In this document: positions 7,827-18,337 of the stretch, piece after piece
How the letters are laid out: each line of letters starts with the position of its first letter
Position numbering within the stretch: the stretch's first letter is position 1
Source of the DNA: Aquificaceae bacterium
GTDB taxonomy: Bacteria; Aquificota; Aquificia; Aquificales; Aquificaceae
Reading direction: 5' to 3'
Assembly (NCBI GenBank): GCA_037481935.1
Contig: JBBFKQ010000005.1
Location: 62,001-126,000 of the forward strand
Length of the DNA stretch: 64,000 bases
The notes under the pieces: model-generated
What the model was told of the DNA's origin: nothing
The model's database searches: none
Seen by the model: the letters and a program-made list of their open reading frames with translations, nothing else
Position numbers and translations under genes: made by a program

Positions 7827-8787
7827 GCTTTCTGTATACTTCCACTATTAGGTCGGCAAGCCTTTTGGGGTCATGCCTGACAAAGTCCTCCTTCTCACCT
7901 ATAAGGTCTTCCGCATAGACCTCTATTCCCTCCCTTGCTATCCTCGCTATGTCTGGAATAACAGGCTCCTGCCTCTGTGCCATGTATCTTCTCAGCACCT
8001 GGTCAGAAGGCATCTTGGTGTTTACCAAGGCCACATCTACCTTCTCAATGCCTGTGTATTCTCTAAAGGCCCTTATGTGGTCATAGGCAGTAAAGCCGTC
8101 CGTTTCACCGGGCTGGGTCATGGCGTTGACCACAAAGACCTTTAGAGCAGGAGAATGAAGGACTGCCTCTCTTATATCAGATATGAGCAGGTTGGGGATT
8201 ATGCTGGTATAAAGGCTCCCCGGACCAAAGACCACCATGTCAGCAGATTCTATTTTTGCTACTGCATCTATGGGAGCCTTTACACCCTGAGGCTCTATCC
8301 ATATCTTTTTGAGCCTGACGCCATCGGACTTTCCATATTCGGTTATTTCTTCCTCACCACAGAGCATTCTGCCGTCGCTAAACTCTGCACAGAGCTGAAC
8401 GCTTTCAAGGGTTGCGGGTATTATCTCTCCCCTAGTCCTGAGTATCTGAGAGGCTATGTTTACCGCATGCATAAAACTGCCCGTTATCTCTGTGAGGGCA
8501 ACAAGAAAAAGGTTTCCAAAGGCATGTCCATCAAGCTCTCCACCCCTGAACCTAAACTGAAAAAGTTCCCTTATTATCTCTTCACTTTCTGACAGAGCCA
8601 CTATACAGTTTCTTATGTCCCCAGGAGCTGGCACGTTGTAGAGTTTTCTGAGCCTTCCGGTGCTCCCACCGCTGTCTGCCACAGTAACTATGGCGGAAAG
8701 GTCCTCTATTTCCCTGCCCACCTTTTCCTTGAGACCTCTCAGAAGGGTGGAAAGCCCCGTTCCTCCTCCTACGGCTACAAGCCTCAT
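7810..8787 (-). CDS. yvcK: YvcK/CofD family UDP-sugar-binding gluconeogenesis factor
   Basis: 325-residue protein of the YvcK family. The glycine-rich nucleotide-binding loop [13 protein letters not shown] is at 8-20, followed by [14 protein letters not shown], and [15 protein letters not shown] further on. In Firmicutes YvcK binds UDP-GlcNAc and is needed for growth on gluconeogenic carbon and for cell shape; the role in an autotroph-like thermophile is inference. The start has AAGGAGGTAGGT before ATG 8787, a strong site. It is divergent from the yceD-type gene across 47 bases and overlaps nadB. Confidence 0.9.
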
Positions 8788-8834
8788 ACCTACCTCCTTG
8801 AAATCTTCACAGGTCTGAAATATTTTAAACCATT
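8788..8834. promoter_or_regulatory. Divergent intergenic region yvcK / yceD-type gene
   Basis: 47 bases. The yvcK side holds AAGGAGG (minus strand). The plus side is AT-rich (TATTTTAA) just before ATG 8835 without a Shine-Dalgarno site. No stronger element is visible. Confidence 0.35.
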
Positions 8835-9323
8835 ATGGTAAAGCTGAACTTAAAGGAAATATTCAAGACCAGGAACAGGTTTTCGCAGAGCTACCTTTTC
8901 AAACCTGAGGATATAAAACTGCCTCCGGACCTCGGCGAGATAAGGGAGCCCATTAGCCTGTACGTGGAAATAACAAAGGAAAGGGGTGGATACAGGGTAT
9001 ACATGGAGATTGAAGGATATGTGGTGCTTGAGTGCAGCCGGTGCCTTACCATATACCAAAAGGATATTGGCAGAAGTGAGTCTATAAGAATAGAGCCATA
9101 TCCCACCAGAGATGTGCTTTATCTGAAGCCCTCAGAGCTTGAAGTATCCTTTTTTGAAGATGAGGAGGCCTTTGACCTTACACAGCTACTCAGGGAGCAG
9201 ATAATCCTCAGTATACCCACAAAGCCCTTGTGCAGCCCCGACTGCATGGCCGGTTTTCAGGAACAGCTTGAAAGCAGAGTTACAACGCTCGGTGACCTTC
9301 TTAAGAAGAGCAATATGTTATAA
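8835..9323 (+). CDS. YceD family (DUF177) protein
   Basis: 162-residue protein of the YceD/DUF177 family, commonly encoded just before rpmF and linked to 23S rRNA accumulation in bacteria and plastids. It shows the usual two cysteine pairs, LECSRC (Cys67, Cys70) and CSPDC (Cys133, Cys137), probably binding a metal. It is followed directly by rpmF-plsX-fabH, the classic order. The TAA stop lies inside a TATAAT box that seems to serve rpmF. Confidence 0.88.
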   Translation: MVKLNLKEIFKTRNRFSQSYLFKPEDIKLPPDLGEIREPISLYVEITKERGGYRVYMEIEGYVVLECSRCLTIYQKDIGRSESIRIEPYPTRDVLYLKPSELEVSFFEDEEAFDLTQLLREQIILSIPTKPLCSPDCMAGFQEQLESRVTTLGDLLKKSNML

Positions 9324-9324
9324 T
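9319..9324 (+). promoter_or_regulatory. rpmF promoter -10 (TGTTATAAT) overlapping the yceD-type stop
   Basis: TGTTATAAT at 9316-9324 is an extended -10; the stop codon TAA is 9321-9323. Unlike most boxes in the window it leaves room for a leader, and GGAGG (9346-9350) precedes the rpmF ATG. Confidence 0.55.
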
Positions 9325-9357
9325 ACAATCTTCACTATACCTTACGGAGGCTGTGAA

Positions 9358-9543
9358 ATGGCGGTTCCAAAGAGAAAGACTTCAAAATGGAGAAGAGACC
9401 AGAGAAGGGCCCAGAATTTCTTCTCTAAGTTGAAGAGTGGGTCGCTCGCAAACTGCCCCAACTGCGGTGAGCTAATGATGCCCCACAGAGCATGCCCTTA
9501 CTGCGGATACTACAAGGGTAGAGAAGTTCTCAAGACTTCATGA
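9358..9543 (+). CDS. rpmF: 50S ribosomal protein L32
   Basis: 61-residue L32. The start MAVPKRKTSKWRRDQRRA is canonical, and two CxxC pairs (Cys33/36, Cys46/49) form the zinc ribbon seen in L32 of many thermophiles. I start at ATG 9358, preceded by ACGGAGG, rather than at an upstream in-frame ATG that would add an unrelated extension. The stop overlaps the plsX start as ATGA. rpmF-plsX-fabH links ribosome and membrane synthesis. Confidence 0.97.
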   Translation: MAVPKRKTSKWRRDQRRAQNFFSKLKSGSLANCPNCGELMMPHRACPYCGYYKGREVLKTS

Positions 9544-10544
9544 CAAGAATAGCGGTTGACTGTATGGGGGGGGACTATGCCCCAGAGGAGATAGTAAAAG
9601 GCTGTATTCTTGCATACAGAGAGCTGGGCCTTGAAAGTGTGCTTGTGGGTGATGAGGAGAAAATAAGGCGTGTGCTCGAGAGGGAAAAGTTTGATAGTCT
9701 TGAGATAGTGCATGCACCTGATTTGGTGCAGATGCATGAACCACCCTCCAATGTGCTTAAAAAGAAGCTCTCTTCTCTCTTTGTGGCCGGTAAGCTGGTA
9801 AGAGAGGGTCTTGCGGATGGGCTTGTATCAGCAGGAAATACAGGTGCAGTTCTTACTGTAGGTAAGTTCGTTATTGGTTCTATTGAGGAACTGGAGCGTC
9901 CTGCCATAGGGGTTGCCCTTCCGAACCCTAAGGGGAAAACGGTCCTTATTGACGTGGGTGCTAATGTGGATTGCAAGCCAAAGCATCTTCTCCACTTTGC
10001 AGTCATAGGACACACCTACGCCGAGGAGATACTTGGTATAAAAAACCCCAGGGTGGGTATTCTCAGCATAGGAGAAGAAGAGGGCAAGGGCAATGAGCTG
10101 GTAAAGGAAACATACCCCCTTCTGAAGGCGAGCAGACTTAACTTTCTGGGCAATGCAGAAGGCAGGGACATATACGCAGGCACCTTTGATGTGATAGTGT
10201 GCGACGGCTTTGTGGGTAATGTTATACTCAAGGCAAGTGAGAGCCTTGGTTTTGCAGTGCTTCAGATGATAAAGGAAGAGGTGCAGAAAAGCCTCCTGGC
10301 AAAGCTGGGAGCAGTGCTTATGAAGCCTGCTCTCAACAACTTCAGGAAAAAGGCAGACTTCGCGGAGTATGGAGGCATACCCCTCCTGGGGGCTAAAAAG
10401 CCAGTCATAATAACCCACGGAAGGGCAAACGCAAAGGCCATAAGAAACGCCATAAGGGTTGCAAACGAATTTCTGACACATCACTTCAACGAAAGGCTTT
10501 CAGAGAACCTGAAAAATTTACTCCCACAAGAGGTAAAAGTCTGA
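9540..10544 (+). CDS. plsX: Phosphate acyltransferase PlsX
   Basis: Converts acyl-ACP and phosphate to acyl-phosphate, the donor for PlsY in phosphatidic acid synthesis; a peripheral membrane protein. The 334 residues start with the family signature DCMGGDYAPEEIVKG, followed by SAGNTGA and VGANVDCK. Codons for MGGD give a run of eight G (9566-9573). Coupled by 4-base overlap to rpmF and by a one-base overlap to fabH. Confidence 0.96.
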   Translation: MTRIAVDCMGGDYAPEEIVKGCILAYRELGLESVLVGDEEKIRRVLEREKFDSLEIVHAPDLVQMHEPPSNVLKKKLSSLFVAGKLVREGLADGLVSAGNTGAVLTVGKFVIGSIEELERPAIGVALPNPKGKTVLIDVGANVDCKPKHLLHFAVIGHTYAEEILGIKNPRVGILSIGEEEGKGNELVKETYPLLKASRLNFLGNAEGRDIYAGTFDVIVCDGFVGNVILKASESLGFAVLQMIKEEVQKSLLAKLGAVLMKPALNNFRKKADFAEYGGIPLLGAKKPVIITHGRANAKAIRNAIRVANEFLTHHFNERLSENLKNLLPQEVKV

Positions 10545-12635: not shown

Positions 12636-13095
12636 TGGAATTGTTCTAACCGCTCTGACCTACATGGAAAGACCCTATCAATTCGGTGCCAACGAGCTAT
12701 ACAGGATGGACTGCTCTGCCTTTGTTCAGAGAGTCTTTGAAGTAAACGGTATAAAGTTGCCAAGAAGCACTGCGGAACAGGCAAAGGTAGGAGTGCAGGT
12801 AGAACGGGACAGGCTAAGACCGGGAGACCTTCTCTTTTTCACCACCTACAGACCTGGACCATCCCATGTGGGCATATATTTGGGAAATGGTAGATTTGTG
12901 CATGCCAGCGAAAAGACAGGTATAACAGTAAGCAGAATTGATGAAACATACTGGCAGAGAAGGTTCCTCTTCGCAAGGAGGCTGGAACATAGCGCCAATG
13001 ATTACGCAAGGCTTGAAGGAAGGCAAACAGCTCGCACCATAACCCCAGAGGGCGATGAGATTGGAGACCTCATCTTCATACTTTCTAACCGTTAA
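12577..13095 (+). CDS. Secreted NlpC/P60 family peptidoglycan hydrolase
   Basis: 172-residue protein with a signal peptide (about 1-18, MRVVIGAVLLNVGLSLANA) and an NlpC/P60 domain: catalytic Cys46 in MDCSAFVQ and His97 in PSHVGIYLGNG, with RPGDLLFF between. The family cleaves gamma-D-Glu-diaminopimelate bonds in peptidoglycan stems. The start lies 59 bases inside the upstream flavoprotein gene in another frame; the signal peptide supports it. Its 3' end overlaps the convergent cysteine-cluster gene by 11 bases. Confidence 0.88.
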   Translation: MRVVIGAVLLNVGLSLANADGIVLTALTYMERPYQFGANELYRMDCSAFVQRVFEVNGIKLPRSTAEQAKVGVQVERDRLRPGDLLFFTTYRPGPSHVGIYLGNGRFVHASEKTGITVSRIDETYWQRRFLFARRLEHSANDYARLEGRQTARTITPEGDEIGDLIFILSNR

Positions 13096-13789
13096 TATAC
13101 CTTCTTATCAGGCGCTCCCAGTTCTGCAGGGAATTAAGGTGGGCGTAGATTACTTTGAGATATCCCTTTTCTGAAAGCCATCTGAGGGTATCCCCAGAAA
13201 GTTCAAAAAGTCTTTTCTCATCCACCATGTTAAAGGAGACCTCTACCCCCTCATAGCTAACCCTCCCGCCCACCACAAGCCCAAGGTCAAAAAGAAGGTT
13301 GATAAACTCCTCTGTCTGAGCCTTACCCTCCTCAAGTTTGAGAGAGTAAACATAGAAACCCTGCTCAAAGCAGGAGTTTATCAGCTGACCCTCCCAGATG
13401 GGTTCTCCTTCCAGTTCAGAGAAGCCAGGGCAGGTAAGGTCAAGGGCAAGATAGCCTCCACTTATGAAAAAAGGATACTGCCTGCATGTGTAGGGCTTTT
13501 CCTCCTCTAGAAGACAGCCAACACCATCCTTTAGATATATACAGCCCTTCCAGTCTTCCTTTAGCCTGAAGTATGCACAAAAAAGCCTCTGCTCCTTGCC
13601 CTCCTGGTCTACTTCTATGTTTATGACCACTGGAAAATGTCTTGAGAGGGATACAACTTCCTCAAGAACTACAAAAGTTCTATCAGGAATAAGGCAACAG
13701 CTGTGGGGGCATGCACCTTTGAGACATGACCACTTGAGGTTTATGTGTTTTTCTTGGTCAAGAAGTATGGTATTGGAGAAGAGCTTCAT
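13085..13789 (-). CDS. YkgJ-type cysteine-cluster protein
   Basis: 234-residue protein with the YkgJ-family pattern: Cys22-x4-Cys27-x3-Cys31-Cys32, then Cys71, Cys83, Cys92 and Cys102, the last in YTCRQYPF. These cysteines probably bind a metal (zinc or iron); the biochemical role is not established. Directly follows frr (4-base overlap) as last gene of the rpsB operon and converges on the NlpC/P60 gene. Confidence 0.75.
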   Translation of the reverse strand: MKLFSNTILLDQEKHINLKWSCLKGACPHSCCLIPDRTFVVLEEVVSLSRHFPVVINIEVDQEGKEQRLFCAYFRLKEDWKGCIYLKDGVGCLLEEEKPYTCRQYPFFISGGYLALDLTCPGFSELEGEPIWEGQLINSCFEQGFYVYSLKLEEGKAQTEEFINLLFDLGLVVGGRVSYEGVEVSFNMVDEKRLFELSGDTLRWLSEKGYLKVIYAHLNSLQNWERLIRRYING

Positions 13790-14331
13790 CCACCCATTAT
13801 CTCCTTTTCCTTAGCCTCTGCGAGCTGGTTTATCTCATCTATGTGTTTGTCAGTGAGCTTTTGTAGCTTTTCCAGAGCCCTCTTTATCTCATCCTCAGAT
13901 ACTCCCTCCAGCTCTTCAAGCATATCCTTCGCATCCCTCCTTATGTTCCTTACGGCTACCCTTGCCTCCTCCGCCATTTTATGGAGCATCTTGACAAGCT
14001 CTTTCCTTCTCTCCTGTGTAAGGGGCGGAAGTGTTATCCTGAGCACATTGCCCTGCCTCTGGGGAGTGAGGCTGAGGCTTTCCATTATTGCTTTCTCTAC
14101 GCTTGACACGGCGTTTGCATCCCACAACTGGACGGTTATCTGGTTCACATCAGTTATACTTATACTTCCAAGCTGTTTCAGTGGAACTCTTGAGCCGTAA
14201 TAATCAACTTTGAGCTCCTCCACCAGAGAGGTGCTTGCCCTACCAGTTCTCAGACCAGCTATTTCATTCTTAAAGTAGCTCACCGCCTTTTTCATGTCTT
14301 CTTCGACGCTCTTAAAAATATCCTCTATCAT
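13786..14331 (-). CDS. frr: Ribosome recycling factor
   Basis: Splits post-termination ribosomes together with EF-G. The 181 residues show the family pattern: GLRTGRAS (about 26-33), VDYYGSRVPLKQLGSI, an inner domain with NVLRITLPPLT, and a C-terminal three-helix tail KLTDKHIDEIN. Length is near the usual 185. It belongs to the conserved rpsB-tsf-pyrH-frr set, but here a restriction-modification pair separates it from pyrH; only 3 bases separate it from the methyltransferase gene. Confidence 0.97.
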   Translation of the reverse strand: MIEDIFKSVEEDMKKAVSYFKNEIAGLRTGRASTSLVEELKVDYYGSRVPLKQLGSISITDVNQITVQLWDANAVSSVEKAIMESLSLTPQRQGNVLRITLPPLTQERRKELVKMLHKMAEEARVAVRNIRRDAKDMLEELEGVSEDEIKRALEKLQKLTDKHIDEINQLAEAKEKEIMGG

Positions 14332-14334
14332 GCT

Positions 14335-15228
14335 CTAACCTCCTCTCGTGTATTCTTCTATCCTCCTCTTTGCAAGCTCCACATAGTCAGGGTTTATCTC
14401 ATATCCCACATAGAACCTTTCACACATAAGACTTGCTATGGCGGTCTGTCCACTACCCATGAAGGGGTCAAGCACCACATCACCTTTAAAGGTGTATAGC
14501 TGAATGAGCCTGTAGGGAAGCTCAATGGGAAAAGGTGCAGGGTGCCCCACCCTTTTTGCGCTCTCACTTTTCATATACCACACGCTTCTCGTAAAACTCA
14601 AAAACTCTTCTCTGCTTATGGTGTTTTCTCCTGTAGTTTTTCTCTCAAAGAAGCCCTTTGAAAAGATAAGAATATATTCGTGCTCATCCCTTATCACAGG
14701 GTTTTTTGCACTAAGCCATGTGCCCCATGCAGTTGAAGGAGCTCCTCCCCCCTGTTTTACCCATATTATCTCACCCCGCATCAAAAAACCTATATCAAGC
14801 ATATCCTGAATTATGTATGCGTGCAGAGGAATGTATGGTTTTCTACCGAGGTTTGCCACATTTATACACGCCCGCCCACCAGGAACAAGCACTCTATAAA
14901 CCTCTTTCCAGACTCTTTTTAGAAAATCCCTGTATTCCTCAAGGCTCATATCCATGTCGTAATCCTTACCCACATTGTAGGGCGGAGAGGTTACCATGAG
15001 GTGGATGCTACTATCGGGGACTTCTGTTATGCTTTCAGAAGACTTACAGAAAATAGCGTTTTTTAATTCCTCCGGAAATGGATTTTCTACCTCCTTCTGC
15101 TTGCTTTCTAGATGCCCACTAAAATCAGTATATAGTCTTCTATTGTAAAAACTTGCCGAGTCGTGAGCTATCCTTCCAGCAGAGCCGAAGGAACTTGTCT
15201 TTGTGCCTCTTCTTAATCTTCTGCCCAT
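14335..15228 (-). CDS. Type II DNA methyltransferase, beta class (N4-cytosine or N6-adenine)
   Basis: 297-residue SAM-dependent DNA methyltransferase. The amino-methylation motif IV TSPPYNVGKDY (SPPY at 81-84) comes before the SAM motif I DPFMGSG (254-260), the motif order of beta-class enzymes. SPPY is commonest in N4-cytosine enzymes. I start at ATG 15228 rather than TTG 15240. Start overlaps the end of the ThaI-like gene by 16 bases, so the two are translationally coupled and form a restriction-modification pair. Target site not readable; if the partner is ThaI-like it could be CGCG. Confidence 0.88.
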   Translation of the reverse strand: MGRRLRRGTKTSSFGSAGRIAHDSASFYNRRLYTDFSGHLESKQKEVENPFPEELKNAIFCKSSESITEVPDSSIHLMVTSPPYNVGKDYDMDMSLEEYRDFLKRVWKEVYRVLVPGGRACINVANLGRKPYIPLHAYIIQDMLDIGFLMRGEIIWVKQGGGAPSTAWGTWLSAKNPVIRDEHEYILIFSKGFFERKTTGENTISREEFLSFTRSVWYMKSESAKRVGHPAPFPIELPYRLIQLYTFKGDVVLDPFMGSGQTAIASLMCERFYVGYEINPDYVELAKRRIEEYTRGG

Positions 15229-15851
15229 ATCTCTATCCAACGCGTATAAGGATTATAGTTAAGTTCTCCTTCTATTTTCCAGTCTATACTTATTTTAAAC
15301 GGTGTTTTTTCTACACATGTTCTCAATGCATTAGCACTTATTTCTATGCCCCTTGGGTTCGTTCCCTGCTTCGGTAGTTTTATATATCCTTCTCTTCCAA
15401 GTTCCTCAAATACGGAATTTTGAATACTTAATGGTATATAAGCAAAAAATCCACTAAATCCCCAATTTATCTGCACAAAAAGAATATCTGAAGACGGGAG
15501 ATAGCTGTTGTAAAATTCATTGACCTTATCCCAATCAACAGTCCACTTTAACTTAACACCTGAAAATCCTTTACCAGTCTTAGTTTTTATAGATATAGGG
15601 TTTGCGTGCCCCTCTATCTTAACATCCGCCTCTGCCTCATTTACTGGCATGTCATACAGAACCTTATCTTCGCCAAACCTGTATATAAGAAAAGCTATTA
15701 TAGCCCTTTCTCTGAGCGTCCCAACCTCCATACCAGTGTGTCCGCCTCTGGACAGTTCTAACTCTGCTATCTTGAAGATGTAGGGCAATTTCTCTTTCAA
15801 TTTCTTCACCGATGATTCCTCTTTAAATATCTGTGCCAAAAGGTCACCCAT
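15213..15851 (-). CDS. ThaI-like type II restriction endonuclease
   Basis: 212-residue protein. I recognise the pattern of the ThaI family (CGCG-cutting enzyme of Thermoplasma): SRGGHTGMEVGTLRE (35-49), DVKIEGHANPISIKTKT (76-92), KWTVDWDKVNEFYNSYLPSSDIL and TNPRGIEISANAL. Asp76 followed by Ser87-x-Lys89 is a plausible PD-(D/E)xK-type catalytic set; this is inference. The start ATG 15851 follows the pyrH stop by 2 bases; an upstream extension would run inside pyrH. More AT-rich than the flanking operon, suggesting transfer. Family call moderate, restriction role likely from the linked methyltransferase. Confidence 0.68.
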   Translation of the reverse strand: MGDLLAQIFKEESSVKKLKEKLPYIFKIAELELSRGGHTGMEVGTLRERAIIAFLIYRFGEDKVLYDMPVNEAEADVKIEGHANPISIKTKTGKGFSGVKLKWTVDWDKVNEFYNSYLPSSDILFVQINWGFSGFFAYIPLSIQNSVFEELGREGYIKLPKQGTNPRGIEISANALRTCVEKTPFKISIDWKIEGELNYNPYTRWIEIWAED

Positions 15852-15853
15852 CC

Positions 15854-17436
<1,583 letters not shown>

Positions 17437-17438
17437 CC

Positions 17439-18263
17439 TCATTCCTCCTCTGCACCTTTGTCAATGTATTCGTATTTCTCAGACATCTCCATAGCTTTCT
17501 CAAAGAGCACCTTCTCCTCCTCTTCTACTGCAATAACCCTTCTCTTTGGCACTTCCACAGCAGCTTCTCCGAGGCTTTCCCTTCTCTGTTTACCTTCTAT
17601 AACCGCATCAGCTATCTTTGAGGTGAGAAGCTTTATGGATTTTATGGCGTCATCGTTCCCTGGCACGGGATAATCTATGAGGTCCGGGTCACAGTTGGAG
17701 TCTGCTATGGCAACCACTGTCACTCCCAGTTTTTTCGCCTCCTGGACTGCTATGGCTTCACGGACTGTGTCCACAACCCAGATTATGCTGGGAGGCCTTT
17801 CCATGTTCACTATGCCACCGTAGAGCTTCCTGAGCCTTTCCATCTTCCTCTTTAGCTCTCTTACCTCCTTTTTGGGAAGCACATCAAAAACACCTTCAGC
17901 CTCCATCCTCTCAAGGGTGTGGAGCTTCAGAATACTCTTACGAACAGTTCTGAAATTGGTCAGAAGTCCGCCCACCCACCTTTCGTTCACATAGGGCACA
18001 CCAGCCCTCTCTGCCTCTTCCTTTATAACATCCTTTGCCTGCTTTTTTGTGCCCACGAAGAGCACATCAGCTCCCTGTGCCACGTTGTCCGCTATAAAGT
18101 GGTATGCCTGCTCAAGGAATACCACCGTCTTGTTGAGGTCCACAATGTGTATGCCGTTGCGGACGCCATAGAGGTATGGTGCCATTTTGGGGTTCCAACG
18201 GCCCCTTGAGTGTCCAAAGTGGACACCCGCCTCTAAAAGGTCTCTCATAGAAACTACTGCCAT
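17439..18263 (-). CDS. rpsB: 30S ribosomal protein S2
   Basis: 274-residue S2. Canonical N-terminus [51 protein letters not shown] and [19 protein letters not shown] are present. A charged C-terminal tail of about 40 residues follows. I start at ATG 18263, preceded by AAGGAGG with 5-base spacing; an upstream GTG/ATG would include the ribosome binding site in the coding region. The leader carries a structured element (see separate entry) likely used for S2 autoregulation. Confidence 0.97.
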
Positions 18264-18337
18264 TTTCTCCTCCTTGGGTTTTGCCACCCTTTCCCAGACC
18301 CCTTATGGGGCAACCCAGTAGGGAAAGGTGCGGTCTT
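18264..18337 (-). promoter_or_regulatory. Structured rpsB mRNA leader, candidate S2 autoregulatory RNA
   Basis: On the mRNA, CACCTTTCCC (18330-18321) can pair with GGGAAAGGGTG (18295-18285, one bulged G), closing a second hairpin CCCC-ATAA-GGGG (18310-18307 with 18302-18299). GGGTT (18316-18312) can pair with AACCC (18280-18276), which touches the AAGGAGG site, giving a possible pseudoknot that would hide the ribosome binding site. S2 controls its own operon in E. coli; applying this here is inference. Confidence 0.5.

Follow-up and report, generated by a model that had tools for sequence, protein, structure and literature searches.

Background

ThaI, from Thermoplasma acidophilum, cleaves CG/CG; in work by Firczuk dating from 2011, R.ThaI reportedly uses Glu54, Asp82 and Lys93 for catalysis and Met47 for intercalation. 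Kobayashi and co-workers described mobile type II restriction-modification (RM) systems, with insertion occurring with or without target duplication as well as linked rearrangements (PMC3874152, PMC3031569). That RM pairs occur in operons and that RM systems move by insertion is known in outline (PMC3031569, PMC3874152). Oliveira et al. (2014) further observed that solitary genes rarely arise by in-place degradation and that RM turnover is fast though RM systems are rare on mobile elements, how this happens being a question that they stated as open (PMC4176335).

This study concerns a pair of genes located between pyrH and frr in a thermophilic Aquificaceae bacterium. A limited literature search retrieved no paper describing an RM pair at this junction. 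Our overall reading, to which we assign a probability of roughly 0.7, is that of an intact ThaI-type pair, long resident between pyrH and frr, that would be expressed from the host operon, decays in place and can be transferred together with an adjacent housekeeping gene.

Genes and borders of the locus

The window (i.e. the whole stretch of 64,000 nucleotides that was analysed, from species G000) displayed the order rpsB-tsf-pyrH-[REase-MTase]-frr on its minus strand. Genes rpsB (ribosomal protein S2, 17439-18287) and tsf (elongation factor Ts, 16573-17442) were recognised from their open reading frames, sequence, gene order and phylum homologues. The upstream neighbour pyrH (UMP kinase, 15854-16573) matched TIGR02075 with 318 bits, and the downstream neighbour frr (ribosome recycling factor, 13786-14331) matched TIGR00496 above its cut-off. 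Between them lie a putative ThaI-family type II restriction endonuclease of 212 amino acids (REase, 15213-15851) and its putative cognate methyltransferase of the beta class (MTase, 14335-15228). The original prediction of such a pair within this operon was confirmed. The REase covered the complete PF15514 ThaI profile (positions 1-203 of 203, 239.8 bits for a cut-off of 25, E 3.2e-71) and matched crystallised ThaI (PDB 3ndh, E 1.7e-61) and PADLOC REase_II (E 4e-64); the MTase matched PF01555 (E 4e-45) and PADLOC MTase_II (E 7e-133).

Key residues were conserved in both proteins. REase residues Glu48, Asp76, Lys89 and Met41 aligned to the four R.ThaI positions mentioned above (3ndh alignment, with a deduced numbering offset) and were invariant across six homologues. 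The MTase displayed motif TSPPY (80-84) followed by DPFMGSG (254-260), both of them showing little or no variation among 15 aligned homologues, which suggests an enzyme of the N4/N6 type (N4mC or N6mA), SPPY hinting at N4mC. By analogy with ThaI, CGCG would be the site cut by the REase and protected by the MTase. Adjacency of the two genes recurred in genomes G003, G028, G042, G079 and G086 as well as in other phyla. Judging from its sequence, the locus is a complete ThaI-type type II RM pair with intact predicted catalytic residues.

The borders of the pair were very tight. The REase ATG (15851) lies 2 bp past the pyrH stop and frr starts 3 bp past the MTase stop (14335). The Shine-Dalgarno sequence of frr is made of the final MTase codons GGA GGT TAG, contained in the MTase 3' tail (14331-14348, GGAGGTTAGAGCATG) that was delimited from the junction sequence and from the remnant found in G007 (see below). 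A TTG codon at 15240 is a possible MTase start; yet MTase homologues start at the ATG equivalent to 15228 (MGRR/MARR), hence an REase/MTase overlap of 16 bp and not 28 bp. The pair is as closely joined to pyrH and frr as had been predicted, and overlaps couple it to its neighbours. Spacing was nevertheless dropped as a sign of unusual insertion, because tight packing is general in this genome: gaps of 5 bp or less separated 26 of the window's 40 co-directional neighbour pairs, and further PF01555 MTases likewise occurred within tight gene strings. The unusual feature is which genes are parted, not how tightly they are spaced. Beyond the pair, a SapC/zinc-chelating-like gene (13085-13789) overlaps the frr end; at this position, it was encountered in G000, G007 and G013 only.

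Proposed expression from the host operon

Between positions 13000 and 19300, promoter-like matches amounted to 7 (6.8 in shuffles) and terminator-like matches to 3 (5.2 in shuffles). These counts are at chance level, so that the predicted absence of visible promoters and terminators between the genes holds, albeit as weak evidence. The pair would be read on the rpsB-tsf-pyrH-frr transcript, without promoter or terminator of its own, and its translation would be coupled to that of neighbours pyrH and frr. Its dose might then follow growth rate, as originally proposed.

Alternatively, the pair may possess its own promoter, for instance within the REase gene and ahead of the MTase, its seat in the operon being incidental to expression. 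Two promoter-like coding-strand matches (10/12) were indeed present inside the REase gene, one of them with its end at 15252, at a distance of 24 bp from the MTase ATG that follows, and a separate promoter for the MTase is known in the RM operons of EcoRI and Eco29I (PMC3874152). However, promoter-like matches were as numerous in shuffles, and the TATAAT near the MTase corresponds to Tyr-Asn-Pro codons and was missing in G003, G042 and G079. We consider this alternative improbable and retain expression from the host operon.

The pyrH-frr junction across the phylum

The survey covered 136 genomes of the phylum. In 68 genomes, pyrH and frr were directly adjacent, with no gap larger than 96 bp, in agreement with the predicted interruption of a conserved and essential gene order; in 35 further genomes, frr was absent from the stretch examined, being located elsewhere or lost to a contig end. 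ThaI relatives occurred in 9/136 genomes and, as the proposed comparison of the junction revealed, most relatives were devoid of the pair. Besides the window species G000, the genomes considered below include its congeners G003, G007, G013 and G006 (the latter without the pair), Hydrogenobacter genomes G019, G034 and G079, G042 from the Hydrogenothermaceae, and G028 from another genus. Genomes G013 and G007 consist of one contig each; the assemblies of G079, G019 and G028 are fragmented drafts, and at least some of them are MAGs.

Occupied pyrH-frr junctions were found in G000, G003, G013 and G028. The pair was complete in G003 and in G028, which represents a second genus and whose pyrH lies at a contig edge. 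In G013, the MTase came straight after pyrH and the REase was missing. Genome G007 displayed pyrH, the terminal 36 bp of the MTase gene and then frr; this remnant was 100% identical to the G013 MTase (E 4e-14), retained the frr Shine-Dalgarno and is readable as a short ATG-started frame. A third genus, Hydrogenobacter, provided G019 and its sister G034. In G019, the MTase was intact and the REase following pyrH was broken, without any usual start codon where members of the family begin and with its C-terminus deleted; frr was not located downstream. In G034, pyrH was followed by only a stretch of about 14 bp similar to the beginning of the REase gene, a weaker scar call. Gene order after frr was common to G000, G003, G007 and G013 and absent from other congeners, which suggests that these four probably form one clade. 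Single-gene trees did not reject their monophyly (AU p 0.16-0.41), support being not strong.

These states contradict the original prediction that loss of the system would be hard: the MTase-only junction of G013, the 36-bp scar of G007, the broken REase of G019 and the REase-like stretch of G034 indicate that loss recurs in sister genomes, leaving that expectation unsupported. The sequences of these junctions show that loss in place can recur, provided that the start signal of frr survives. Junction copies have decayed in place in two ways, i.e. by deletion of the REase with retention of the MTase, or by removal of the whole pair except for a scar bearing the frr signal, and such decay explains part of the patchy distribution. 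The idea that an essential operon shields a selfish pair from loss is corrected accordingly: it is the start signal of the following essential gene that has to be preserved. Sister species form a natural series at this locus, from complete to REase-less, scar and empty, within which G013 provides a case of a solitary MTase that originated in place.

Age and arrival at the junction

Divergence of the junction copies was close to that of host genes. MTase identity reached 80% between G000 and G003 (tsf 87%, pyrH 89%), 73% between G000 and G019 (tsf 77%, pyrH 75%) and 93% between G003 and G013 (tsf 92%, pyrH 97%), and for these copies MTase and host trees were compatible, with weak inner branches. 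Residence at the junction is therefore probably old. Two other comparisons departed from the host pattern, since MTases displayed 97% identity between G019 and G086 and 92% between G079 and G042, i.e. across genera or families. At the DNA level, the copies of the pair were 96% and 91% identical, respectively, and this excess identity points to transfer across genera or families. The original prediction had opposed an ancient presence to insertion, and each side of this opposition kept some ground: copies in two genera diverge like host genes, whereas most relatives lack the pair.

Independent arrivals behind pyrH may have taken place in three lineages, namely the genus of the window, Hydrogenobacter (G019 and G034) and the genus of G028, in which case highly expressed essential operons would perhaps be favoured as landing places. 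The high DNA identities just mentioned make horizontal transfer of the ThaI family clear, several other junctions hold the same family, and genomes between the occupied lineages were mostly empty. Yet three flush hits at one stop codon would be improbable by chance, given the many co-directional junctions available. Moreover, MTase divergence among junction copies stays near that of the hosts, and the branching of G028, G019 and the window's genus follows the host order, although several inner branches are weak. Separate arrivals thus seem rather unlikely, and these sequence comparisons favour a single old arrival with many subsequent losses.

Other junctions and apparent transfer with flanking DNA

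Outside pyrH-frr, the family occupied diverse junctions. In G079, the REase ATG came immediately after the stop codon of accC (biotin carboxylase) and the MTase spanned the Shine-Dalgarno of pycB; in relatives, the accC-pycB gap was empty and measured 12-30 bp. The pair of G042 was located between rpiB and glyA (12-20 bp apart in relatives), and Candidatus Chrysopegis kryptomonas carried its pair at the gatA-sucD junction. In these three cases, the placement was just as flush as at pyrH-frr. In Zixiibacteriota, an MTase had a 4-bp overlap with a biotin carboxylase gene. In G008 (L065, G008:C3, 1040-1560), a ThaI REase remnant directly after accC was followed by non-RM sequence and by glyA instead of pycB; judging from its sequence, this accC-glyA site formerly held RM genes and was rearranged. 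A G008-like donor was considered for the glyA gene of G042 and rejected, this gene being Hydrogenothermaceae-like throughout.

Partner genes also varied. In G045 (L062, G045:C106, 3198-4966), an MTase 66% identical to that of the window was found after alaS together with an unrelated ORF of 289 amino acids, which had no Pfam match at 1e-5; a swap of REase with the same MTase is possible. An Armatimonadetes contig (L181, 4761-5624) carried a ThaI-family REase ahead of mutS2 without adjacent MTase, an apparent solitary REase.

The G079 copy provided the clearest view on transfer. Over its stretch 7964-9863, which includes accC, identity was 81-84% with the window's genus but 75-77% with its own. 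The accC gene grouped with the window's genus (100/99), a G079-G080 clade being rejected (AU p 2.8e-74), whereas pycB grouped with Hydrogenobacter (opposite rejected, p 0.001), only its first 180 bp leaning toward the window's genus. It appears from this that the pair arrived together with its upstream neighbour, as homologous recombination predicts. Simple contamination is unlikely, because the contig is Hydrogenobacter-like on both sides of the region, with such sequence extending over kilobases both upstream, before the accC tract, and downstream, past the pair. These sequence relationships indicate that the G079 pair came with flanking host DNA, from a donor outside the sampled genomes and with a local assembly chimera as a possible complication. 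In this one relative, there is thus evidence that the pair moved with neighbouring host DNA, which bears on how RM systems move. By extension to a wider route, pairs could reach new hosts by recombination with an adjacent housekeeping gene, no transposase being needed.

ThaI relatives were absent from 50,697 phage and 72,556 plasmid records. An IMG/VR viral contig (L222, 3992-4600) encoded a 39% ThaI relative, and carriage by viruses may therefore occur. Inspection by eye of G000, G003, G079 and G042 against empty sites revealed neither terminal inverted repeats nor target-site duplications, although old duplications may have eroded.

Selection and activity

Both genes of the pair are under purifying selection. 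Comparison of G000 with G003 yielded dN/dS values of 0.11 (REase) and 0.07 (MTase), whereas pyrH and frr had values of 0.04-0.05, synonymous sites being near saturation. The orphan MTase of G013 displayed 8 amino-acid changes of its own, including Gly118Glu and Gly275Cys, against 2 in G003, for 15 versus 18 third-position changes; these small numbers suggest relaxed constraint after loss of the REase.

Site avoidance gave no support for activity. The observed/expected ratio of CGCG was 0.49 in G000 and 0.14 in G006, and the site was depleted in all congeners sampled, most strongly in one without the pair; CGCG avoidance was hence discarded as a sign of activity. In G000 (window plus stretches L202-L205), observed/expected ratios were as low as 0.08 for GATC and 0.06 for GTAC, and these sites were also depleted in G003 and G013; this strong depletion suggests other long-lived restriction activities.

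The pair of the window species might be a functionless, decaying remnant, as could be imagined from the frequent decay at this junction (G013, G007, G019 and G034) and from the non-specific CGCG avoidance. However, both ORFs are intact, all alignment-invariant residues of REase and MTase are present and dN/dS is low, which makes a remnant very unlikely. We instead envisage an ordinary ThaI-type pair, whether defensive or selfish, which would be kept for long periods and lost through deletions that spare the frr start signal.

Comparison with known systems

More generally, ThaI pairs could be regarded as "operon-junction" elements, devoid of transposase and expression signals, that would use a host stop codon and a Shine-Dalgarno sequence as borders and would spread by homologous recombination via flanking genes. 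This generalisation is tentative, and we hold it to be doubtful rather than probable; if true, it would help to answer how RM turnover can be fast despite rarity on mobile elements.

The window pair resembles the ThaI system of Thermoplasma acidophilum (R.ThaI, 3ndh, PF15514) by the full-length homology of its REase, its catalytic core and its MTase partner of the N4/N6 type. This likeness is drawn from the proteins; the window pair distinguishes itself by its host, an Aquificaceae bacterium, and by the essential translation genes on either side of it. With the solitary MTases of Oliveira et al. (2014, PMC4176335), the common trait is the G013 MTase without REase, but here complete, MTase-only and scar states were encountered at one junction in sister species. 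Finally, the patchy distribution, movement among genomes and presence of RM genes in operons recall the mobile RM systems of Kobayashi and co-workers. In contrast to these, neither a long target duplication nor a transposase was seen here; the cassette fits from the upstream stop codon to the downstream Shine-Dalgarno and, in G079, the neighbouring gene appears to have moved along with it.
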